Assembly (NCBI GenBank): GCA_016200205.1
Contig: JACQFF010000163.1
Span: 1-34,493 of the forward strand
From: Planctomycetia bacterium
GTDB taxonomy: Bacteria > Planctomycetota > Planctomycetia > Pirellulales > PALSA-1355
Reading direction: 5' to 3'
Length of the DNA stretch: 34,493 nt
Shown here: piece after piece, positions 6,377 to 31,528 of the stretch
How positions within the stretch are numbered: the first letter of the stretch is position 1
How the letters are laid out: every line of letters starts with the position of its first letter
Made by a program: the position numbers and the translations under genes
The notes under the pieces: generated by a model
Database searches by the model: none
What the model saw: only the letters and a program-made list of their open reading frames with translations
Told to the model about the DNA's origin: nothing

Positions 6377-9300
6377 TCAAGTTCGAGTAATCGTCTCGTG
6401 CAAATTCAACAGCACGCGCACCACCGATGTCCAAGCGGCCAGTTCAGCCGGATCGAGTTCGGCGGCAACCGGGGCTTCGCCGGCGCTAATCAACTGCCGC
6501 GCAGCCGCTTGCTCGGCGGCGTACTCGGCGCGATGTTTATCGAGCAAGCCGGTCAACACGCTTAACTCTTCGGAGTTCGGTTCGCGCGACAAGGTTTGTC
6601 GATAGGCCCAGCGCAGCCGCTCCCCGGCATTTGCGCCCCCTTCGACCAGCACGCGGCGGGCGAATACGCGAGCGACTTCGACATACGTGGGGTCGTTGAG
6701 CAGCACCAGGGCTTGCAGCGGCGTATTGGACCTCGGCCGCTCGACGGCGCACTCTTCGCGCGTGGGCGCATCGAAGGCCAGCAGGCTCGGATGCAGGAAC
6801 GTACGAGCCCAATAGGTGTACAGGCCACGGCGATATTGGTTCTCGCCGTGGTCGCTTTCGTATTCGCGCACCGGGAAATTCAAATGGGCCCAGTAGCCGC
6901 GCGGCTGGTACGGCTTGACGCTCGGTCCGCCGATTTTCAACTGCAGCAGCCCGCTGATCGCCAGGGCATTGTCGCGCACCATTTCGGCGTCGAGCCGAAA
7001 ACGGCTTTGACGCGCCAGCCACTTGTTGTAAGGATCGGCTTGCCGCAAGGGTTCGCCGGCGGCCGAAGATTGGCGGTAGGTGGCCGACATCACCATCAGT
7101 TTCAGCATGTGTTTTACGTCCCAGCCGCTTTCGATAAACTCGTTGGCGAGCCAGTCGAGCAATTCCGGATGCGTCGGAGCCACGCCCTGCGAGCCAAAGT
7201 CGTCGAGCGTTTTTACGATCCCTTGACCAAACGCCAGTTTCCACAGACGATTGACCGCCACCCGCGCCACCAGCGGGTTATCCGGGTCGGTCATCCAGCG
7301 TGCCAGATCGAGCCGAGTCGCCGGCCGATCTTTTACCGCCAGCGGAGGCAAGAAGGCCGGCACCGCCGGCGCGACGACTTCGCCGCTGTCCGAGAGCCAA
7401 TTCCCGCGCGGCAAGATCCGCATGGTCCGCGGCTGCGTCGACATCGAGACCAGCGTCGTCGGCACGCTCTTCACGAAATCTGCTTTCGCTTGTTCCAACT
7501 CCAAGAGCGATTGGCGCATGGGTGCGAGCAGGGGGGCAATCGAGCGGTAGTGCGCGGCCAAGGCTTGTTTTTGTTGCGGGGTGCGAGCGTCGTTGGCCAC
7601 TCTCAAGATTTCGACAACCTCGTTGGGCAGCCCCTGGTTCGCCCGCACCGGTTGAGGGCTATCCGTGGCGGAAACGCGAAAGCGGCCAAGGTTATGCGAA
7701 TTGCCGTGGTTTTGCAGAAGCTCGAAGGTCAGCACCGCCTCGGCGGCCGGTGGACCGCCTTGTATTTCGAATACCGCGACGTGTTGTTTTGTCATTTGGG
7801 GCGCGACGCCCCATCCCGTGGCCGGATTGTTGTCGATAGCGGCCGAAACCGGCAAACCGTCTTGCGCGAAATCGGTCGAGGCCTCCTGGAGCACCAGCGG
7901 CGTCGCCGCGGCCGGGTTCGCTTTCGGTGCGATCGTGCAGCGGATTTCCGAGAGCACGAAATTGCCGTTCGCTGCCCGCCCCGAGCCTTTGCCGGGCAGG
8001 CTGTTGTCCGGCAGCACTTCCAGACGCAAGGCCGAAATGTCCGGCAGGTTCGCCGGCGCCACAATGGTGTAGATGTCGCTCTCGGCGGTCGTCCCGCCGA
8101 GCAACATCGTGCCGTCGTTGGCGATCGTGAAGCTCGCGCCCGAGGCCGCGACCGCGCCGGAGGGCTTGAGCGGCTTCCAATCGGCAAGCTCGTTGTGGAC
8201 CGTTTTTTCCCATTCGACTTGCGCCGCTTCGAGTTCAGGTGTCGAGGTCTCGATCAGTTTGCGGAGGGCGGCAATCTGTTGGTCGAATTGGGCCAGTCTG
8301 TTGGCTTCGACGTCGTCCGGCATGAGGACCTGCTCTTGCGGACCGACGGCCACCTCTTTGATGTCCGCGAAAAACGCGGCGAAGCTGTAAAAATCCCTGG
8401 TCAAAAATGGATCGAATTTATGGTCGTGGCATTCCGCGCAGCCCAGCGTGGCACCAAGCCACAGCGACGAAGCGTTACGCACGCGATCGGCCGCGTACTT
8501 GGCCAGATACTCCTTCGCTTGTGCGCCCCCTTCGCGGGTCGTCATGAGCAGATGGTTGTAGCCGGAGGCGACCCGGGTTTCGCGGGTCGCGTTCGGCAGC
8601 AAATCGCCGGCGAGTTGCTCCACGGTAAAGCGGTCGAAGGGTTTGTTTTGATTGAATGCTTGAATAACGTAATCGCGGTACAGGGCGATGTCGCGATGGT
8701 TGTCGCCGTGGTAGCCATTGGTATCGGCGAAACGCACCAGGTCGAGCCAATACATCGCCATCCGCTCGCCATAATGAGGCGAGGCCAACAAACGATCGAC
8801 CAGGTTTTCATAAGCCTGCGGAGCTTGATCCTGCAGAAACGCGTCGACTTGCCGCGGGCTTGGCGGCAAGCCGGTTAAATCGAATGATAAGCGGCGCACA
8901 AGCGTGACGCGATCCGCTTCGGGCGCGGGAGAAAGTCCGACTTCAACCAGCCTGGCACGAACGAACGAATCGATGGGATTGGCAACGCCCTGTGCGGCAC
9001 TCGCCGAGGGCACCGCGGATCGCGCGGGTTTGGAATAGGACCAATGCTCTTGCCACTTCGCTCCTTCGAACACCCAGCGGCGTATCAAATCGATCTGGTC
9101 GGGGGTGAGTTTCTTGCCCGAGTCGGGCGGAGGCATCACTTCCTCCGGATCGCTGCTGATGATTCGCCACACCAGCTCGCTGTACTGGGGCTTGCCCGGC
9201 GACAGCGCGACATAGCCGCCCAAATCGGCGGTCGCCCCCTCTTTGGTGTCGAGCCGCAGATTGCCCTGTCGCTCGGCCGCGTCCGGCCCGTGGCAGGCGA

Positions 9301-9430
9301 AACAATTGGCCGACAAGATCGGCCGAATCTGGCGATTGAAATCGACCGGCGCCGCCGCTGTTGCTGTTCGGGCAAAACAAACGATGAGCGAAACGAGGCC
9401 CACGACACGGATGAGGCTGCGACGACTCAT
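6377..9430 (-). CDS. DUF1549/DUF1553 protein with N-terminal cytochrome c-like domain (PSCyt1/PSD1)
   Basis: Exported multidomain protein of 1017 residues. Seen in order: signal peptide (residues 1-26), a planctomycete cytochrome c-type domain with heme motif CFACH (43-47) in ILSANCFACHGPDAAERQG, a DUF1549 region (about 145-355) containing YWLDLVRFADTNGYHGD and a second CxxCH-type motif CAECHDHKFDP, a central beta-rich lectin/jelly-roll-like stretch (about 400-600), and DUF1553 (about 700-970) with WMTDPDNPLVARVAVNRLW and RSNTPLQALVLLNDP. All are standard for the family. It probably binds heme c in the periplasm. It is the first gene of a likely transcript with DUF1501 and the Gfo/Idh/MocA gene. 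Biochemical function is unproven. Confidence 0.93.
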   Translation of the reverse strand: MSRRSLIRVVGLVSLIVCFARTATAAAPVDFNRQIRPILSANCFACHGPDAAERQGNLRLDTKEGATADLGGYVALSPGKPQYSELVWRIISSDPEEVMPPPDSGKKLTPDQIDLIRRWVFEGAKWQEHWSYSKPARSAVPSASAAQGVANPIDSFVRARLVEVGLSPAPEADRVTLVRRLSFDLTGLPPSPRQVDAFLQDQAPQAYENLVDRLLASPHYGERMAMYWLDLVRFADTNGYHGDNHRDIALYRDYVIQAFNQNKPFDRFTVEQLAGDLLPNATRETRVASGYNHLLMTTREGGAQAKEYLAKYAADRVRNASSLWLGATLGCAECHDHKFDPFLTRDFYSFAAFFADIKEVAVGPQEQVLMPDDVEANRLAQFDQQIAALRKLIETSTPELEAAQVEWEKTVHNELADWKPLKPSGAVAASGASFTIANDGTMLLGGTTAESDIYTIVAPANLPDISALRLEVLPDNSLPGKGSGRAANGNFVLSEIRCTIAPKANPAAATPLVLQEASTDFAQDGLPVSAAIDNNPATGWGVAPQMTKQHVAVFEIQGGPPAAEAVLTFELLQNHGNSHNLGRFRVSATDSPQPVRANQGLPNEVVEILRVANDARTPQQKQALAAHYRSIAPLLAPMRQSLLELEQAKADFVKSVPTTLVSMSTQPRTMRILPRGNWLSDSGEVVAPAVPAFLPPLAVKDRPATRLDLARWMTDPDNPLVARVAVNRLWKLAFGQGIVKTLDDFGSQGVAPTHPELLDWLANEFIESGWDVKHMLKLMVMSATYRQSSAAGEPLRQADPYNKWLARQSRFRLDAEMVRDNALAISGLLQLKIGGPSVKPYQPRGYWAHLNFPVREYESDHGENQYRRGLYTYWARTFLHPSLLAFDAPTREECAVERPRSNTPLQALVLLNDPTYVEVARVFARRVLVEGGANAGERLRWAYRQTLSREPNSEELSVLTGLLDKHRAEYAAEQAAARQLISAGEAPVAAELDPAELAAWTSVVRVLLNLHETITRT

Positions 9431-10958: not shown

Positions 10959-12815
10959 ATGAAAAATATGTATGGTCTGGCGACGCTGGTCGCCTTGGTG
11001 CTAGCGATGGGCGGCCCCCGGGCATTCGCCCAGGTGGAGGGGCAGGAGAAATCGCCCCTGGGTCAGCGTGTGCAACCTTTCGAACTGCGAGACTTCCGCG
11101 GCAAGACTTACTCGCTCGACGACTTCAAAGACAAGCGGTCGCTAGTCGTGGCGTTTTTGGGAACCGAGTGCCCGTTGGCGTTGCAATATGCGCCGCGGCT
11201 GGTGCAATTGTCCGAGCGGTTCGCCGAGCGGGGCGTGGCGTTCATCGGCATCAATTCGAACCAGCAGGATTCGATTACCGAATTGGCTGGATACGCCAAA
11301 ATCCACGAAATCAAGTTCCCGCTGCTCAAGGACGTCGGCAACGTGGTGGCCGATCGGATGGGGGCCGTGCGAACGCCCGAAGTATTCGTGCTCGATCAAG
11401 ATCGAGTGGTACGCTATTGGGGACGGATCGACGATCAGTACATCGTGGGCCGGCAGCGCAAGCAAGCGACGCGCGAAGATCTGGCCGTCGCCTTGGAAGA
11501 GCTATTGGCCGGCAAAGACGTCAGCCAGCCGGTGACCGACGTGCAAGGTTGCCGCATCGGCCGCGTTCACCGGACGAAAGTCGATGCGCAAATCACTTAT
11601 TCGAAGCACATCGCTCCACTGCTCAACAGCCGCTGTGTCGAGTGTCACCGAGCTGGCGAGATCGCGCCGTTTTCGCTGACCAGTTATGCCGAAGTGGCGG
11701 GCTGGGCCGAAACCATGTTGGAGGTGGTCCAGCAGAATCGCATGCCGCCCTGGCACGCCAGTCCCGAGTATGGCCACTTCAGCAACGACCGTCGCTTGAG
11801 CGACGCCGAAAAACAAATGCTCTCCGCATGGATCGAGGCCGGCGCTCCGCAGGGTGATCCGAAAGATCTGCCAGCGCCGCCGCAATTTGCCGAGGGCTGG
11901 CGATTGCCGCGCATCGATCAGGAAATCTTTATGTCCGAAACTTCATTCGACGTGCCGGCGGAAGGAACGGTCAACTACAAATACTTCGTGGTCGATCCGC
12001 GTTTCACGGAAGACAAATGGGTGCAAGGCGCCGAAGTTCGGCCCGGCAATCGGTCCGTCGTGCACCACATTATCCTCGCGACGCGGGGCGGCTCGCGAAA
12101 GCACGGACGCCGGGAAGGCCGCTTCGAGTCGGAGTTTCTCGCGGCCACCGCGCCGGGCGCTCAACCCATGAATTTGGGTGAGGGCATGGCCAAGCTGGTG
12201 CCGGCCGGATCAAAACTGGTCTTTCAAGTGCATTACACGCCCAACGGCTCGCCGCAAAAAGATCGCAGCAGCGTGGGCCTGATGTTTGTCGACGCCGCCA
12301 AAGTGCGCAAGGAAGTCGCCACGCTGGCGGTCGATACCCACCTGTTGCTCATTCCACCCCAGGTACCCGACTACAAGCTCGAGGCCTGGCACACGTTCCG
12401 CGAAGACACGCTGTTGCTCTCGTTGTTTCCGCACATGCACCTGCGCGGCAAGGCATTCCGCTACGAAGCTCAGTATCCCGACGGCACCAAGGAAGTGTTG
12501 CTCGACGTGCCGCGGTACGATTTCGCCTGGCAGCAAACCTACGAGTTGGCCGAACCCAAGTTGCTGCCCAAGGGTACCAAGATGCGTTGCATCGCCCACT
12601 ACGACAATTCGCCGGAAAACATCGGCAATCCGAACCCCAATGCGCTCGTGCACTGGGGTGAACAGACCTGGGACGAGATGTTGATGGGCTTTTTGGACAT
12701 GACCGTGCCCGACGAAGCCGCCAACGAACCGCCCAAAAAACCCGCCGCCGAAGCGGTCTCGTCCAACCAGGACAGGTCATCCAAGCCCGACGGGAAACTG
12801 CCCGCCGTCAAGTAG
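10959..12815 (+). CDS. Redoxin / cytochrome c / copper monooxygenase-like fusion protein
   Basis: Exported protein of 618 residues with three domains. Seen: signal peptide (1-24); thioredoxin-fold redoxin domain (about 32-190) with a single Cys71 in LGTECPLA, so no CxxC; a heme c motif CVECH (226-230) in a planctomycete-type cytochrome segment, followed by QNRMPPWHA; and a C-terminal domain (about 325-585) like the peptidylglycine/dopamine monooxygenase PHM fold. Its likely copper ligands are the His pair in VVHHII (369-370), HYTP (His425), PHMHLRG (His492, His494) and Met/His in MRCIAHY (542-547). The copper sites follow the known CuA/CuB pattern; copper loading is inferred. The tail (after 590) is charged and low complexity. 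GGAGAAG lies upstream of the ATG. Substrate unknown; an oxidative or thiol-related periplasmic role is likely. Confidence 0.85.
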   Translation: MKNMYGLATLVALVLAMGGPRAFAQVEGQEKSPLGQRVQPFELRDFRGKTYSLDDFKDKRSLVVAFLGTECPLALQYAPRLVQLSERFAERGVAFIGINSNQQDSITELAGYAKIHEIKFPLLKDVGNVVADRMGAVRTPEVFVLDQDRVVRYWGRIDDQYIVGRQRKQATREDLAVALEELLAGKDVSQPVTDVQGCRIGRVHRTKVDAQITYSKHIAPLLNSRCVECHRAGEIAPFSLTSYAEVAGWAETMLEVVQQNRMPPWHASPEYGHFSNDRRLSDAEKQMLSAWIEAGAPQGDPKDLPAPPQFAEGWRLPRIDQEIFMSETSFDVPAEGTVNYKYFVVDPRFTEDKWVQGAEVRPGNRSVVHHIILATRGGSRKHGRREGRFESEFLAATAPGAQPMNLGEGMAKLVPAGSKLVFQVHYTPNGSPQKDRSSVGLMFVDAAKVRKEVATLAVDTHLLLIPPQVPDYKLEAWHTFREDTLLLSLFPHMHLRGKAFRYEAQYPDGTKEVLLDVPRYDFAWQQTYELAEPKLLPKGTKMRCIAHYDNSPENIGNPNPNALVHWGEQTWDEMLMGFLDMTVPDEAANEPPKKPAAEAVSSNQDRSSKPDGKLPAVK

Positions 12816-12952
12816 CGCGTGATAAGGACGCGCGGGCCGACGCGCGGCGCGCGGGCCGTTCACGACGCTAGCGCAAATCTTCGGGACATTTCAAGCTCGG
12901 CTCCGAATCGCCTCGCGCGTAGAATGGAGTGAACTCTCGAAAGGATGCACCA

Positions 12953-14302
12953 ATGCAGATTTTCGCGCTGCTGGCGACGTCCGATGCTGCATTCAATCTG
13001 TTGGCCGCGCGCTGGCAAATGGGGATCACGCTGGGCGCGCATATTATTTTGGCCGTGTTTGGCGTCGCCATGCCGGTGCTTTTGCTGGCGGCCGAATGGC
13101 GCTATCTCACGACCGGCGACCCTGTTTGGAGGGCACTCGCCTACCGCTGGTCGAAGGTGTTCGCGGTGCTGTTCGCGGTGGGGGCCGTTTCCGGCACGGT
13201 CCTTTCGTTCGAACTCGGCCTGCTGTGGCCCGAGTTCATGGCCCGCTATGGGCCGGTGATTGCATTTCCATTCGCGATGGAAGGGTTCGCGTTCTTTCTC
13301 GAAGCGATCTTTGTCGGCATTTACCTCTATGGCTGGAACCGATTGCCCCCCTGGACGCACTGGTGGTGCGGAGTTCCGATCGCCACCAGTGGGGTCGCCT
13401 CGGCCTGGTTCGTGGTCACCGTAAACGCCTGGATGAATTCGCCCCAAGGCGTGCGGTTCGAGAACGGACGAGTCGTGGACATCGACCCGCTCGCCGCGCT
13501 GGTGAATCCCTGCACTGGGCCGCAAACCGCGCACATGATTGTGGGCGCCTATATGGTCGCCGGTTTCCTGGTGGGCTCGTATTATGCCGGGGCGTTGCTG
13601 CGCAATCCAATTTCGATCTACAGTCACCGGGCGATGACGCTTGGTCTGCTATTGGGCACGGTCATGACCCCCATGCAGTTCGTGGTTGGTGATTGGATGG
13701 CACGGCGAGTCGCCCAAGTGCAACCGGTCAAACTGGCCGCGATGGAGGGCCAGTTCCAGTCGCAGGCTGGGGCGCCGCTGCGGATCGGCGGCTTTCCCGA
13801 TGAGAAGTCGCGCAGAACCGGTTATGGCCTTGAAATTCCAGGCATGCTGTCCTGGCTGGCCTACGGAGACCGCAATGCGCTGGTGAACGGCCTCGACAGC
13901 TTCCCGCGCGAAAACACGCCGCCGGTGGCCGTCGTACACATCGCGTTTCAGGTAATGGTCGCCATCGGCACTCTGTTGCTGTTGCTCTCGCTGTACGTGT
14001 TTATCGTCGGTCTGGCGCGGCGGAAAATCCCGGACGGACCGATTTTTTTGCGGCTGCTCGCGGTGGCCGGGCCGCTGGCTCTCGTCGCTTTGGAAGCCGG
14101 CTGGGTTGTCACCGAAGTGGGGCGTCAACCGTGGATCGTGCAGGGCGTCACGCGTACGCACGACATGGTCACCGCCGCGCCTTACGTCGGTTGGATGCTC
14201 GTGGTGACGGTCGGCATTTACACCGTGATCGTGTTTGGCACGATTGCCGTGTTGCGCCAGTTGGCGCGTTTACCCATGCCGGAGGAAACGCGTGCAGCCT
14301 GA
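12953..14302 (+). CDS. cydA: Cytochrome bd-type quinol oxidase subunit I (CIO-like)
   Basis: Membrane subunit of a bd-type oxidase that reduces O2 to water with quinol, 449 residues. Seen: RWQMGITLGAHIILAVFG with His30, the equivalent of the high-spin heme b595 ligand; FAMEGFAFFLEAIFVGIYLYGW (read as two pieces around Glu110 and Glu117), typical of this subunit; HMIVGAY with His194, equivalent to a low-spin b558 ligand; KLAAMEGQ in the Q-loop; and GWVVTEVGRQPW, the family signature. The Q-loop is short and the sequence is closest in style to cyanide-insensitive (CioA) oxidases. About nine membrane helices. The ATG at 12953 has AAGGA 7 bases upstream; the GTG at 12929 is less likely. cydB overlaps the end. 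Cyanide insensitivity is inferred only. Confidence 0.94.
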   Translation: MQIFALLATSDAAFNLLAARWQMGITLGAHIILAVFGVAMPVLLLAAEWRYLTTGDPVWRALAYRWSKVFAVLFAVGAVSGTVLSFELGLLWPEFMARYGPVIAFPFAMEGFAFFLEAIFVGIYLYGWNRLPPWTHWWCGVPIATSGVASAWFVVTVNAWMNSPQGVRFENGRVVDIDPLAALVNPCTGPQTAHMIVGAYMVAGFLVGSYYAGALLRNPISIYSHRAMTLGLLLGTVMTPMQFVVGDWMARRVAQVQPVKLAAMEGQFQSQAGAPLRIGGFPDEKSRRTGYGLEIPGMLSWLAYGDRNALVNGLDSFPRENTPPVAVVHIAFQVMVAIGTLLLLLSLYVFIVGLARRKIPDGPIFLRLLAVAGPLALVALEAGWVVTEVGRQPWIVQGVTRTHDMVTAAPYVGWMLVVTVGIYTVIVFGTIAVLRQLARLPMPEETRAA

Positions 14303-15317
14303 AATGATCCTTCTCGTGGTGGTGTTTGGTGCCCTGACCCTCTATTCGCTGCTGGGCGGAGCCGATTTCGGGGCCGGCGTGTGGGAGGTCAATGCCGCGG
14401 TGCGTTCTTCGGATCGCGAGCGCGCAATGCTGTATGCCGCCATCGGACCTGTCTGGGAAGCCAATCACGTGTGGTTGATTCTCGTCCTCGTGGCGATGTT
14501 TGGCGCGTTCCCAGTCGCGTTCGCGGGTGTTTGCCGGGCGCTCTGGCTGCCGCTGCTTTTGGCGCTGGCGGGAATTGTTTTCCGTGGCGTCGGGTTCGCA
14601 TTCCGCTCTTACACGGCGGGCGCCGTGCGTCAGCAGGTGGCCTGGGACGCGTTGTTCGCGATGGGATCGACCGCGGCGCCGTTTTTTCTCGGCGCGAGCG
14701 TCGGCGCCTTGGCATCGGGCAAGTTGGCTATCAGAAGTGACGGCGGCTTCGAAGGAAATTATCTCACCGGTTGGATGGCGTCGTTGGCCCTGTTTACAGG
14801 ATTCCTTGTGGTCGGGATGTGCGCTTATCTTTCATCCGTGTATCTGGCCCGCGAGGCGAGCTTGCGCCGCGATCGAGAATTGGTGCTGCTGTGGCGGCGT
14901 CGAGCCTTGGCGACCGGCGCGTTGATGGGCGTTTTGGCCTTGGCCGGTGTCGTGCTCGTGGCGACCGGCGCCCCGCTGCTGTGGCAAGGTTTTCGCCTGC
15001 GCTCGTGGCCGCTGGTCGGCGGCTCGATCGTTGCAGGTTTTTCATCGCTCTATTCGCTCGCCGTCGAGCGCTATCGCACCGCCGTCGTTGGTGCCGCGCT
15101 CGCCGTTTCGACGGTGATCTGGGGTTGGGGGATCGCGCAGTTTCCCCTGATCGTGCCGCCGACGATCACCGTGGACAACGCCAAAGCCCCGGCGAACATC
15201 CTGTGGCTGATCGTCGCCACGGTCGGCATCGGGGCTCTGCTGCTCTTTCCGGCGCTAGGTTACTTGTTCTACCTGTTCAAGACCGGCCGATCCAAAGTTG
15301 CGACTTCGGATCGCTGA
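14292..15317 (+). CDS. cydB: Cytochrome bd-type quinol oxidase subunit II
   Basis: Second membrane subunit of the oxidase, 341 residues, normal length. Seen: LTLYSLLGGADFGAGVWEV near the N-terminus (the family opening is LYxxLxGxDxGxG), WEANHVWLILVLVAMFGAFP, and FRGVGFAFR; around eight hydrophobic helices follow. I chose the GTG at 14292 because GGAGG (14281-14285) stands 6 bases before it; the ATG at 14304 would be 18 bases from that site. The GTG start makes it overlap cydA by 11 bases, so the pair is translationally coupled. The gene ends 19 bases from the convergent ABC permease. No cydX-like small gene or cydDC genes are visible nearby. Confidence 0.93.
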   Translation: MQPEMILLVVVFGALTLYSLLGGADFGAGVWEVNAAVRSSDRERAMLYAAIGPVWEANHVWLILVLVAMFGAFPVAFAGVCRALWLPLLLALAGIVFRGVGFAFRSYTAGAVRQQVAWDALFAMGSTAAPFFLGASVGALASGKLAIRSDGGFEGNYLTGWMASLALFTGFLVVGMCAYLSSVYLAREASLRRDRELVLLWRRRALATGALMGVLALAGVVLVATGAPLLWQGFRLRSWPLVGGSIVAGFSSLYSLAVERYRTAVVGAALAVSTVIWGWGIAQFPLIVPPTITVDNAKAPANILWLIVATVGIGALLLFPALGYLFYLFKTGRSKVATSDR

Positions 15318-27682: not shown

Positions 27683-28714
27683 ATGAGGCGCGTTTACTCT
27701 TTTGCAATCCTGATCGTGAGCACGGGTTTGCTTCTGCCGGGCTGCGGCACCAGCAAAGCGGAGGCCGATCGCGAGACCGCCTCGCAAGAGCTGCTCAACG
27801 TGTCCTACGATCCGACGCGAGAACTTTGGAAGAGCCTGAACAAGCAATTCATTGCCGAGTACCAGAAAAAGACCGGCGTGCAATTGGACATTAAACAATC
27901 GCATGGCGGCTCTTCGAGCCAGGCCCGCAACGTGATCGACGGCCTGGAAGCGGACGTGGTCACCTTGGCGCTATGGTCGGACACCAACGCGATTGCCAAA
28001 GCCGGACTGATCAATGAAGGTTGGCAAACCCGACTCCCCAACGGCGCCTTGCCTTACTCCTCGACGATCGTGTTCGTGGTTCGCAAGGGGAATCCCAAGC
28101 AGATCAAGGATTGGACCGACCTGGTTCGCGAGGGGGTGGAAGTGATCACGCCCAGCGCCAAGACTTCCGGCAACGGAAAGCTCAGTTTCCTGGCTGCTTG
28201 GGGAAGTGTCGTGTTGCGTGACGGCTCCGAAAAAGACGCCACCGATTACGTGACCAGGCTCTACAGCCATGTCCCCGTGCTCGATTCAGGCGCTCGGGCC
28301 GCAACTACCACGTTTGCCCAAAAACAAATCGGCGACGTGCACCTGACCTGGGAGAACGAGGCCTATTTCGAAGTGCGCGAAGCGAAGGGCGCGTTGGAAA
28401 TCGTCTATCCGCCGATCAGCATTCGAGCCGAGCCGCGCGTCGCCGTGGTCGATAAGAACGTCGACCGAAAGAAGACTCGGGCCGCGGCGGAAGCGTACTT
28501 GCGATTTCTCTATACGCCCGAGGCTCAAGAGATCATCGCCCAGAACTATTACCGCCCGCACAAGCCCGAAATCTTGAGGAAGTATTCCAATTCGTTCCCG
28601 CCGATTGAACTGTTCACGATTCAAAAGATCGCGGTCGATTGGGACGAAGCCGAAAGACGATTCTTCCATGACGGCGGCGTGTTTGACCAGATTTACGGCT
28701 TTGGGCAGAAGTAA
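27683..28714 (+). CDS. sbp: Sulfate-binding lipoprotein of ABC importer
   Basis: Periplasmic solute-binding component, 343 residues. Seen: a lipoprotein signal (LLLPGC, Cys at residue 21), the family opening LLNVSYDPTRELWKSLNKQF, then DIKQSHGGSSSQARNVIDGL (the sulfate-site segment), ADVVTLALWSDTNAIAKAGL, and VEVITPSAKTSGNGKLSF, all typical of Sbp/CysP. The lipobox is unusual compared with the soluble enterobacterial proteins but fits an anchored form. GGGAG stands 7 bases before the ATG. It is the first gene of the operon and is followed 30 bases on by cysT. It could also bind thiosulfate. Confidence 0.94.
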   Translation: MRRVYSFAILIVSTGLLLPGCGTSKAEADRETASQELLNVSYDPTRELWKSLNKQFIAEYQKKTGVQLDIKQSHGGSSSQARNVIDGLEADVVTLALWSDTNAIAKAGLINEGWQTRLPNGALPYSSTIVFVVRKGNPKQIKDWTDLVREGVEVITPSAKTSGNGKLSFLAAWGSVVLRDGSEKDATDYVTRLYSHVPVLDSGARAATTTFAQKQIGDVHLTWENEAYFEVREAKGALEIVYPPISIRAEPRVAVVDKNVDRKKTRAAAEAYLRFLYTPEAQEIIAQNYYRPHKPEILRKYSNSFPPIELFTIQKIAVDWDEAERRFFHDGGVFDQIYGFGQK

Positions 28715-28744
28715 ATCACCGCCCGAGCCACACAGGTGCCAGCC

Positions 28745-29569
28745 ATGTCGCCATCGAACCGCAAGGTATTGCCCGGATTTTCCCTGAGCCTGGGTTACAC
28801 GCTGTTGTACATGAGCCTGCTTGCGCTGATTCCCTTGGCGGCCTGCTTCACCAAGGCGTTTTCGTTGTCCGTCGACCAGTTTTGGGCGGCCGTGTGGACG
28901 CCGCGGACGGTGGCAGCCTACCAGTTTACGTTCACCGTGTCGATCGTGTCGTCCTTGGCGAGCATCATTTTGGGGTTCGTCATTGCCTGGGTGCTGGTGC
29001 GATATGATTTTCCCCTCAAGCGGATATTCGACGCCTTGATCGATTTGCCTTTCGCGCTGCCCACGGCCGTGGCGGGGCTGGTTTACTCGGGCCTGTATGT
29101 CGAGACCGGTTGGCTGGGGCAATTCTTGGTGCCCTTGGGCATTTACGGCGCTTACTCGCGATTCGCGGTGGTGTTAGTGCTGACCTTCTTGGGCATACCG
29201 TTCGTGGTCCGCACGTTGCAGCCCGTTTTGGAAAGCTTGGAAGACGACAAAGAAGAGGCGGCCTACCTGTTGGGCGCCAGCCGGAGCCAGACGTTTTGGC
29301 GCGTGATTTTTCCGACTTTGATCCCCGCCTTGGTGACCGGTTTCGCTTTGTCGCTGGCACGCGGTTTGGGGGAATACGGATCGGTGGTTTTCGTGTCGGG
29401 CAACATGCCCTTCAAGACCGAGATCGCGCCGGTGCTGATCGTCGCGCGGTTGGAGGAATTCGCCTATGCCGAAGCCACTGCGATTGCCGTGGTGCTGTTG
29501 GTCATTTCGTTTGCCATGCTCGTGCTGATCAACCTGCTGGAGCGCTGGAGCAAGCGGTACTATGCATAA
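28745..29569 (+). CDS. cysT: Sulfate ABC transporter permease CysT
   Basis: Inner-membrane permease of 274 residues. Seen: six predicted helices, with YTLLYMSLLALIPLAACF first, DLPFALPTAVAGLVYSGLY, and the EAA loop EEAAYLLGASRSQTFWRVIF that docks the ATPase. GLGEYGSVVFVSGNMPFKTE is characteristic of CysT/CysU. The ATG at 28745 is preferred to a GTG at 28736 because AGG lies 8 bases upstream. It is 30 bases behind the binding protein and its end overlaps cysW by eight bases, so both are made together. Confidence 0.95.
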   Translation: MSPSNRKVLPGFSLSLGYTLLYMSLLALIPLAACFTKAFSLSVDQFWAAVWTPRTVAAYQFTFTVSIVSSLASIILGFVIAWVLVRYDFPLKRIFDALIDLPFALPTAVAGLVYSGLYVETGWLGQFLVPLGIYGAYSRFAVVLVLTFLGIPFVVRTLQPVLESLEDDKEEAAYLLGASRSQTFWRVIFPTLIPALVTGFALSLARGLGEYGSVVFVSGNMPFKTEIAPVLIVARLEEFAYAEATAIAVVLLVISFAMLVLINLLERWSKRYYA

Positions 29570-30473
29570 CGCGAAGCATACATCCGCCGCGCAGCAATTC
29601 GGCATGCATCGCGCCACGCACCGCGACCCGAAACTGGTGCAGTGGGGCCTGACGCTGGCCGCCTTGCTGACGATTAGCGTGCTGATCGTGATTCCCTTGG
29701 TCAACGTGTTTTATCAGGCATTTGCCGGCGGACTGCCGACCTACTGGGAAAACCTGGTCCGGGACTCCGATACGCTCAATTCGATTCTTCTCACGCTGGC
29801 GGTCGCACCGCTGGCGGTCGTGGCCAATCTGGTTTTCGGCCTGGCGGCGGCTTGGGCGATCACCCGGTTTCAATTTCCAGGCCGCTCGCTGCTCACGGCG
29901 CTCATCGACTTGCCGTTTTCCGTCTCGCCGGTGGTCGCGGGACTGATGCTGATGCTGTTGTTCGGCTTGCAAGGCTATTTTGGTCCGTGGCTGCAAGAGC
30001 ATAACTGGAAGATCATTTTTTCCACGCCGGGTCTGATCCTGGCGACGTGCTTCGTGACGCTGCCGTTCGTGGCCCGCGAATTGATCCCCGTGATGGAAGC
30101 AATCGGCCCGGAAGAAGAAATCGCGGCGATCAGCCTGGGCGCCGACGGCTGGCAGATGTTTTGGCGCGTGACGCTGCCGAACATCAAGTGGGGACTATTG
30201 TACGGGGTGATTTTGTGCAATGCCCGCGCGATGGGTGAGTTCGGGGCGGTGTATGTGGTTTCCGGTCATATCACCGGCCGCACCGACACGATGCCGCTGC
30301 GCGTCGAAAAGCTATTCCAAGAATACAACAACCCCGGCTCGTTCGCGGTGGCTTCGCTGCTGACGCTGCTGGCGCTCGTGACGTTGATTGTGAAGGTACT
30401 GTTGGAACGCAAGACCCGGCTGGAGTTGGCTGAAGCCGCTCGAGTGGTTCATACCCCGGGAGAAGCGTCGTGA
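29562..30473 (+). CDS. cysW: Sulfate ABC transporter permease CysW
   Basis: Second permease of the sulfate importer, 303 residues. Seen: six membrane helices, [20 protein letters not shown], the EAA loop [20 protein letters not shown], and [19 protein letters not shown], which distinguishes CysW from CysT. The N-terminal 30 residues before the first helix are longer than in many relatives and rich in His and Gln. Start overlaps cysT by eight bases and end overlaps cysA by four (GTGA). Heterodimer with CysT. Confidence 0.95.
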
Positions 30474-31528
30474 GCATTTCCGTCAAGAACATCACGAAGC
30501 GCTTCGGCGACTTCACGGCGCTCGACAACGTCAGCGTCGAAGTGCCGACCGGCTCGCTGTTGGCCCTGCTGGGGCCCTCGGGGTCAGGCAAGACCACGCT
30601 GTTGCGCATCATCGCCGGACTGGAAATCGCGGATTCCGGTTCCGTGCTCTGCCAGGACGAAGACGTCACCCATCACTCGGCCCGCCAGCGCAACGTCGGA
30701 TTCGTGTTCCAGCATTACGCGTTGTTTCGCCACATGAACGTATTCGAAAACGTCGCTTTTGGAATGCGGGTTCGCAAACAACCGAAAAAGCTGATTTCCG
30801 AGCGAGTTCGTGAATTGTTGCACCTGGTGCGGCTCGAAGGCCTCGAACGGCGTTACCCCGCGCAACTCTCCGGCGGCCAGCGGCAACGGATCGCGTTGGC
30901 GCGGGCCCTGGCGATTCAGCCCAAGGTGCTGTTGTTGGACGAACCGTTTGGCGCTTTGGACGCGAAAGTCCGCCAGGAGCTGCGCAACTGGCTGCGGCGG
31001 CTGCACGACGAAATTCATACCACCAGCGTTTTTGTCACGCACGACCAAGAAGAGGCGTTCGAGGTGGCCGACAAAGTCGTGGTGATGAACCAAGGCCGCG
31101 TCGAGCAGGCCGGCGCGCCGCATGAAGTTTTCGAGCGCCCGGCCAACCCGTTCGTCATGGATTTCCTGGGCAACGTCAATGTCTTTCATGGGCGAGTACA
31201 GAACGGCCGGGCCCTCGTCGGCGGTTTGGAGGTCGATTGTCCCGAGTATCCGCACCAGGAATCCCGGCCGGCCACGATGTACGTGCGGCCGCACGAATTG
31301 GAAATCGAACACTCGCCCAACGGCGCCGCCAGCTTGAAGGCGCGGGTGGAACGGATCAATTCGGCGGGCTCAATCGCGAAAGTTTTTCTGCTGGCGGTCG
31401 AATTCCCAGTGGGCTTGAACGTCGAAATCAGCCCGGAGCGGTACGGCGAATTGGGATTGAAAGCGGGCGACACGGTGTACGTCTCGCCGCGAAAAGTGCG
31501 CGTGTTCGTGCCGGAATACGTAATCTAG
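30470..31528 (+). CDS. cysA: Sulfate ABC transporter ATP-binding protein CysA
   Basis: Cytoplasmic ATPase of the importer, 352 residues. Seen: Walker [10 protein letters not shown] (35-43), Q-loop [11 protein letters not shown], signature LSGGQRQR (133-140), Walker [12 protein letters not shown] (154-164), and H-loop [19 protein letters not shown]-type regulatory domain follows (about 240-352), with [11 protein letters not shown], as in sulfate/molybdate ATPases. The GTG start overlaps the cysW stop (GTGA). 40 bases after its stop lies the DUF2292 small gene. Confidence 0.95.

Follow-up and report, generated by a model that had tools for sequence, protein, structure and literature searches.

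How might a bacterium supply electrons to a two-copper monooxygenase of the kind typified by peptidylglycine monooxygenase (PHM) and dopamine beta-hydroxylase (DBM or DBH), textbook animal enzymes whose reductant is ascorbate? The question is raised by a gene at positions 10959-12815 of a 34,493-nucleotide contig (JACQFF010000163.1, assembly GCA_016200205.1) from a Planctomycetia bacterium, the whole of which we refer to as the window. Its open reading frame (ORF), on the forward strand, begins with ATG and encodes 618 amino acids, among which a redoxin, a c-type heme domain and a copper domain follow one another behind a signal peptide (Table 1). We favor, with moderate confidence, the reading that the product is exported and acts as a PHM/DBM-fold copper monooxygenase with its own one-electron relay, in which heme c would feed the copper site and the redoxin would act as a cysteine- or selenocysteine-containing partner, a proposal that draws on sequence comparison and a structure model.

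The N-terminus, MKNMYGLATLVALVLAMGGPRAFA, reads by eye as a Sec signal peptide. Pfam identifies an AhpC-TSA domain at residues 35-153 (1.2e-18), and a match to Haem_bd reaches 24.2 bits, under the family cut-off of 27. An AlphaFold model of residues 31-596 has a mean pLDDT of 93 and a pTM of 0.87. An initial annotation had described a single exported chain with a heme c site and a domain bearing the copper-ligand pattern of PHM, and this description is upheld by the ORF, by the presence of all the motifs it named and by the fold match set out below.

Table 1. Features of the fusion gene (window coordinates) and of related loci (coordinates preceded by a locus identifier).
Feature	Position	Strand	Basis
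Exported redoxin / heme c / PHM-like copper protein, whole gene, 618 aa	10959..12815	+	ORF, AhpC-TSA Pfam match, DBM/PHM profile match, structure model
Probable Sec signal peptide, residues 1-24	10959..11030	+	By eye; cleavage probably after AFA, by eye
Redoxin (AhpC/TSA, thioredoxin-fold), residues 31-205	11049..11573	+	PF00578/PF08534; 3u5r and 2cvb structure matches
Redoxin Cys71 in TECPLA (CxxA)	11169..11171	+	Cys in 76/77
Second redoxin Cys198 in QGCRIGR	11550..11552	+	Cys in 75/77; TGA in L143, L153, L146
Heme c domain, residues 210-312	11586..11894	+	CxxCH; domain model; sub-cut-off Haem_bd match; weak fold match
CVECH heme c attachment site, C226-H230	11634..11648	+	C226, C229, H230 in 77/77
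Met262 in RMPPW, presumed axial heme ligand	11742..11744	+	77/77
PHM/DBM-like two-copper domain, residues 318-588	11910..12722	+	PHM 6ala and DBH 4zel fold matches; DBM profile match
His369-His370 in VVHH, CuH ligands	12063..12068	+	77/77; opposite VHH of DBM
His425 in VHYT, third CuH ligand	12231..12233	+	77/77; opposite VHY of DBM
His492-Met-His494 in PHMH, CuM ligands	12432..12440	+	Both His 77/77; opposite HTH of DBM
Met574 in DEM motif (DEMLMG), CuM ligand	12678..12680	+	77/77; opposite Met of EMC in DBM
Proline/lysine-rich C-terminal tail	12723..12812	+	EF-hand, GAF-like or CBM48 domains at this place in relatives
In-frame TGA at C198 equivalent, candidate selenocysteine	L143:1697-1699; L153:3218-3220; L146:3541-3543	+; -; +
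MMPL/RND permease after EF-hand fusion gene	L105:11997-14372 and 11 other loci

The identity of the copper domain is established from both fold and sequence. The domain as modeled (model residues 288-558, corresponding to protein residues 318-588) superimposes on PHM 6ala with a Z-score of 20.6 and an rmsd of 3.1 over 245 residues, and on DBH 4zel with a Z-score of 21.4 and an rmsd of 3.4 over 268 residues; Foldseek returns PHM at an E-value of 1.4e-14. When a sequence profile of the domain is compared with solved structures by hmmsearch, DBM is matched at 5e-8 and PHM at 6e-6. The alignment to DBM spans the whole domain and sets the six copper ligands of the window protein on what we take to be the DBM ligands, with lower alignment confidence for M574 than for the histidines; the alignment to PHM stops short of the region of the residues that we presume to bind peptidylglycine.

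Conservation was read from an alignment (A3) of the window protein with 76 of its 84 matches, incomplete ones being omitted, which gives 77 sequences from 79 species-genome loci with identities to the window protein of 37-62%; the species-genome scan behind it confirmed at least 582 stretches, the best 80 of which were used. Another alignment (A1) omits L037, which has no redoxin, the duplicates L001, L002, L003 and L043, and the contig-end pieces L040 and L042. None of the 77 sequences differs at any of the six copper ligands (H369, H370, H425, H492, H494 and M574), at the heme-binding C226, C229 and H230 or at M262, so that the set of motifs is not a product of chance. That the copper ligands come together, as the initial annotation supposed, is supported indirectly by the whole-domain fold match and by the profile alignment to DBM, and the loss of ligands in homologues, which would have spoken against it, is seen in none of the 77. 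Further copper-domain residues, F522, W524, Q525 and N550 among them, are also invariant, and this constancy alongside both ligand sets makes it very improbable that the fold merely binds or stores copper or plays a structural part. In the model and the alignments, then, the window protein is a PHM/DBM-family protein by the structural definition of fold plus both ligand sets.

The differences from the animal enzymes are nonetheless considerable. With PHM (rat, 1phm and 6ala) the window protein shares the two-domain jelly-roll fold and the HHH and HHM pattern of copper ligands, whereas sequence identity is 16-18% and the window protein is bacterial and fused to heme c and redoxin domains. PHM has disulfides, and these are absent from the window copper domain, because its single cysteine, C544, is the only one present and is itself incompletely conserved (54 of 77). 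Human DBM (4zel) is the best sequence-profile match and likewise carries an extra N-terminal domain, but there the extra domain is a DOMON domain in place of heme c, the reductant is ascorbate, and there is no redoxin.

Distinct PHM domains with a length of at least 200 amino acids number 145 over all fetched loci, and the heme domain lies in the same frame in 143 of them, the two exceptions being a frame broken by TAA (L096) and one at a contig end (L151). This lends indirect support to the view that heme and copper domains belong together. The redoxin is less tightly bound to the pair: within the 143 heme-PHM frames it shares the frame in 128, is adjacent on the same strand in seven, and is missing from the stretch examined in eight. 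Two of the seven adjacent cases (L143 and L153) are single frames with a TGA at the C198 codon; in the other five the redoxin is a separate gene, upstream in L133 and L134 and downstream in L146, L147 and L150. Two of the tandem copies at L121 lack redoxin cysteines, C198 in one case and both residues in the other, yet retain all heme and copper residues, which makes the heme-copper pair look like the part that cannot be dispensed with. The heme and two-copper domains are thus the core of this family, and the redoxin is a usually but not always fused partner.

Several unusual arrangements were seen among these loci. L121 carries three tandem fusion copies (L121:6456-11671). In L124, whose bin is labelled Chthonomonadales, a heme-PHM gene without a redoxin is followed directly by a full fusion (L124:8282-11743). 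Homologues of 1037-1184 amino acids in L136, L137 and L138 have several hundred residues without a domain assignment after (L136 and L138) or before (L137) the three domains. The TAA at L096:10919-10921 breaks the frame within the copper domain and reflects either a pseudogene or an assembly error.

In the mechanism that we favor, reduced heme c would pass electrons singly to CuH, and CuH would pass them on to CuM as in PHM; CuM would then activate O2 and hydroxylate an extracytoplasmic substrate, with the heme in the role that ascorbate has for PHM and DBM. The same domains could be imagined running in reverse, with the copper site oxidizing an extracytoplasmic substrate and heme c handing the electrons to the respiratory chain, in which case the protein would be a copper dehydrogenase or oxidase without O2 activation at copper. 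A c-type heme is the usual exit to the respiratory chain, and the window gene is followed directly by cydA and cydB, encoding a cytochrome bd oxidase (12929-15317). We nevertheless regard this reverse chain as quite unlikely, since the O2-activating CuM ligands are all kept, the methionine included, and no relative of CydA or CydB occurs in the 20 kb examined around L125 or the 14 kb around L126, the two closest relatives; moreover, PHM and DBM, to our knowledge the characterized enzymes that share this fold and these ligands, are both monooxygenases. The window neighbors were considered as a clue to function and rejected as such, because cydAB is not seen in those stretches and the genes that are retained, a metallo-beta-lactamase gene beside one of L125 and L126 and a Gfo/Idh/MocA gene beside both, indicate nothing specific.

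Four observations weigh against the proposed copper monooxygenase with a heme relay. First, Pfam gives no copper-family match, PF03712 (Cu2_monoox_C) included, for the window protein at E-values up to 0.1, and a PF03712 reading of this protein was dropped for that reason; the family is found at up to 0.01 in 12 of 37 aligned members, to which the window protein does not belong, and above cut-off in two homologues encoded by the window's own genome. Second, among the folds listed, matches of the heme domain are weak, the best having a Z-score of 6.2 (hydrazine synthase alpha subunit, 5c2v) and another of 5.0 (FoxE), and the domain modeled alone has a pLDDT of 82. Third, the 145-domain sample is non-random, several loci having been chosen for short frames and some flanks being short. 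Fourth, the window neighbors point to no substrate.

The redoxin domain (model residues 1-175) matches 3u5r with a Z-score of 26.8 and an rmsd of 1.6 over 173 residues, and 2cvb with a Z-score of 26.1 over 170; across 3u5r, 2cvb and 2ywi the Z-scores are 25.6-26.8 over 170-174 residues with 29-36% identity. Unlike the window domain, these relatives are stand-alone proteins, unfused to heme c or copper domains. The active-site cysteine, C71, is model residue 41 and lies at the start of the first helix, which begins directly after it (model residues 42-59). In the TECPLA motif, A74 stands three residues after C71, so C71 is not part of a CxxC motif; in 2cvb and 2ywi, which have CNHC, a further cysteine stands three residues ahead of the aligned active-site cysteine, where the window protein has a glycine. 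A second cysteine, C198, follows the redoxin fold 28 residues ahead of the heme site, in a GC.I motif whose late cysteine is aligned with it in all three solved relatives. In the 77-sequence alignment C71 is a cysteine in 76 sequences and C198 in 75. The initial annotation had called this a one-Cys redoxin, a description overturned both by the conservation of C198 and by the exchange of its codon for TGA in three relatives, which in our reading marks C198 as redox-active.

L143 and L153 each have a complete three-domain frame interrupted by a single TGA, which coincides exactly with the C198 codon (APG-TGA), and the proteins read through it keep every heme and copper ligand. L146 shows TGA at the C198 place in its separate redoxin gene, with four further residues and then a stop. 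Counting the in-frame stops in 133 distinct read-through redoxin-heme chains yields three, two of them TGA on the C198 codon and the other the TAA elsewhere in L096. In 143 distinct redoxin domains, which are 160 redundant rows with identical ones removed, the C198 position is occupied by cysteine in 134, a stop in three, arginine in one, alanine in one and a gap in four. Seven stand-alone redoxins chosen for a flagged stop include two (L183 and L184) with TGA at the same motif and a tail conserved beyond it, and one (L181) with TGA one codon later; in the other four the stop is terminal or outside the domain. The three genomes with the TGA form, G291, G033 and G146, carry both tRNA-Sec and SelB above cut-off, as does the window's own genome, and tRNA-Sec also passes the Rfam cut-off in G132 and G241. 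In the window's genome, SelB and tRNA-Sec genes lie close together (G000:C221:9366-11267 and 12868-12963), and this organism may make selenoproteins.

On the whole, the TGA codons at C198 point to selenocysteine in these three relatives, and we consider an origin by sequencing error, pseudogene formation or true gene splitting improbable. Against such an origin stand the two TGAs of the read-through chains, both exactly on the C198 codon, a third at the same codon in L146, the same-motif TGAs with conserved tails in L183 and L184, the neighboring-codon TGA in L181, and the presence of tRNA-Sec and SelB in the three genomes. Nor does a gene split fit well with the heme-PHM parts of L143 and L153, which by eye have no new signal peptide after the TGA, so that the heme-copper part would be left unexported. 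Errors are favored by the state of the assemblies, which are in many contigs, and by the occurrence in this family of an ordinary nonsense codon, the TAA of L096. Other results also detract from selenocysteine. The machinery is not discriminating, being present as well in the Cys-form genomes G000 (the window's own), G273 and G230, and among 14 control genomes the tRNA-Sec cut-off is passed by five and that for SelB by two. A hairpin resembling a selenocysteine insertion sequence (SECIS) is predicted after each TGA with energies that are not beyond those of shuffled sequences (z -0.32, -1.61 and -1.18), and of two Cys-coded controls (z -0.69 and -2.54) the latter, the window itself, folds better relative to shuffles than any TGA case; with the hairpins not significant, the case for selenocysteine is made by position, codon and machinery. 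A phylum survey of the redoxin-heme pair gave 'none' in every row among the matches listed. The exchange is in any case rare, with one instance among the 14 fused members from the class to which G291 belongs. Nine further loci were inspected (L155-L163, seven flagged for stops in the PHM part and two not), of which eight have no stop between domains; in the ninth, L162, the sole stop lies where the PHM domain finishes. Five read-through proteins scanned against NCBIfam matched no family above cut-off.

Selenocysteine in place of a redox cysteine has precedents among redoxin, AhpC/TSA and thioredoxin-like families, and in this the TGA-form relatives would resemble them. The thioredoxin-fold families described in the pertinent sections of two reviews have the motifs UxxC, UxxU, UxxS, UGC or VPGUxxT (PMC13188914, PMC9312934), and those sections set out no motif in which a single GU near the C-terminus is joined to heme c and copper domains. 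One of these accounts also describes selenocysteine-containing peroxiredoxins, with the residue in a PxxxTxxU motif (PMC13188914). This bears on the possibility that the redoxin is a peroxidase that clears H2O2 released by substrate-free turnover of the copper site, as would suit its AhpC/TSA family membership, its two conserved cysteines and the TGA at the second of them. The selenocysteine of those peroxiredoxins lies in a different motif from the late GC.I cysteine considered here, and we judge this peroxidase reading to be unlikely.

A further alternative is that the redoxin acts outside catalysis, as a built-in maturation aid of the ResA/CcmG type that reduces the protein's own CxxCH before heme is attached. 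ResA, whose job is the reduction of the CxxCH cysteines at that stage, is among the solved redoxin relatives (4nmu, 2.5e-9), the redoxin is found directly ahead of the CxxCH or in a neighboring gene, and some heme-PHM proteins, with 8 of the 145 PHM domains, have no redoxin in the stretch examined. The eight redoxin-free members still have the CxxCH, however; the redoxin does not have the CxxC of ResA; and in three of the five separate-gene cases the redoxin gene is downstream, which indicates that fusion is not required. We regard the maturation aid as a rather unlikely possibility. In the relay that we prefer, the redoxin would be a thiol partner (a selenol partner in some lineages) that feeds electrons, removes peroxide or keeps the CxxCH or copper-site thiols reduced. 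Electron input is retained as the boldest of these roles because Cys/Sec198 stands beside the heme site, and in its fullest form the relay would run within one exported chain from redoxin C71 to C/U198, heme c, CuH and finally CuM. Such a line, ascorbate-independent, drawing on a periplasmic thiol currency and using selenium at the hand-over cysteine in some lineages, is a speculative extension of the comparative data and as a whole rather unlikely.

Homologues of the fusion are abundant among planctomycetes. Of 29 genomes from the same order or from closer relatives, the window's own included, 25 have matches at E-values up to 1e-5, with up to 25 per genome when pieces are counted. In the window's own genome 13 matches are spread over 12 places, of which two are pieces at contig ends, and paralogues number about a dozen or more in some planctomycete genomes. 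Lacipirellula limnantheis, a cultured planctomycete, carries a homologue (L057). In an even draw of the phylum, the copper domain was found at up to 1e-20 in 121 of 294 genomes and the redoxin-heme pair at up to 1e-45 in 132 of 392, both counts scoring only a few candidates per genome. Among the best 80 stretches, those outside Planctomycetota labels come from bins named Verrucomicrobia (L117), Pseudomonadales (L123) and Chthonomonadales (L124), where mis-binning is possible, and a few are labelled only 'bacterium'. A search of viral contigs gave no match.

The family members also vary in what follows the copper domain. By pattern, 84 frames comprise 34 with one or two EF-hands, six with a GAF-like domain, two with a CBM48-like domain, 37 with nothing or up to 30 amino acids, three with something else and two that are cut. 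Ten tails were compared with Pfam. Family cut-offs are passed by the two CBM48-like tails and by three of the five with EF-hands; the remaining two EF-hand tails match below cut-off, as does a GAF-like tail, a second GAF-like tail has no match, and the tenth tail gives a weak TPR match. Exchangeable C-terminal tails of EF-hand, GAF-like, CBM48/AMPK-type glycogen-binding and possibly TPR type are thus spread through L046-L124. In a tree of the 77 aligned sequences and eight own-genome rows, drawn by a quick method without a mixture model and with one long-branch-joining warning, the window protein, which has a charged tail only, pairs with L046, and beside this pair is a clade of five rows containing two GAF-like-tailed members (L049 and L054). 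Paralogue expansion together with the exchange of C-terminal domains suggests that different copies may have different substrates or locations.

One group of relatives offers a hint as to substrate. An MMPL/RND permease gene lies directly downstream on the same strand in 12 of the 79 loci (by clustering, with Pfam for one and NCBIfam for three), at least 1500 downstream bases being present in 63 of the 79. Ten of the 12 fall in the tree in a single clade of 12 rows, all with EF-hands and with a support of 98; the other two rows are L100, which has a gene of a different family downstream, and L112, which ends at a contig end. A strict rule that the EF-hand clade has MMPL downstream is broken by L100. 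For the three permeases scanned with NCBIfam the nearest families are HAE3/HpnN-type transporters, at scores far under cut-off. For this EF-hand/MMPL clade alone, a substrate or product that is lipid-like or amphiphilic is a reasonable lead.

Two other parts of the window may be mentioned. The gene at 6377-9430 encodes a planctomycete cytochrome protein (PSCyt1/DUF1549/DUF1553) that has a c-type cytochrome domain in common with the fusion protein, but for which Pfam shows neither a copper nor a redoxin domain. At 27683-31525 a solute-binding protein and a CysA-type ATPase flank two mutually related genes, probably forming a sulfate/thiosulfate ABC operon.

We found no description of a redoxin/heme c/PHM fusion in the open-licence full-text literature, among the matches listed. 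The ingredients are known, and their combination as predicted here, a redoxin, heme c and a PHM-type copper domain, appears to be new. A table of a metalloproteome review lists PHM/DBM under eukaryotes only (PMC7435645), whereas in the present family the predicted two-copper site recurs in multiple copies within individual bacterial genomes, linked to a heme that might stand in for ascorbate. Should the proposed chain operate, electron transfer from CuH to CuM would become testable with heme c as a built-in optical reporter and controlled one-electron donor. The exchange of TGA and cysteine gives a lead to a selenocysteine site absent from the pertinent sections of the reviews (PMC13188914, PMC9312934) and marks the cysteine to mutate. 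For planctomycete biology, the finding points to a large and unexplored family of candidate oxygenases that are exported, carry tails of the calcium-binding, GAF-like or carbohydrate-binding type and, in one clade, have an MMPL transporter as a neighbor.

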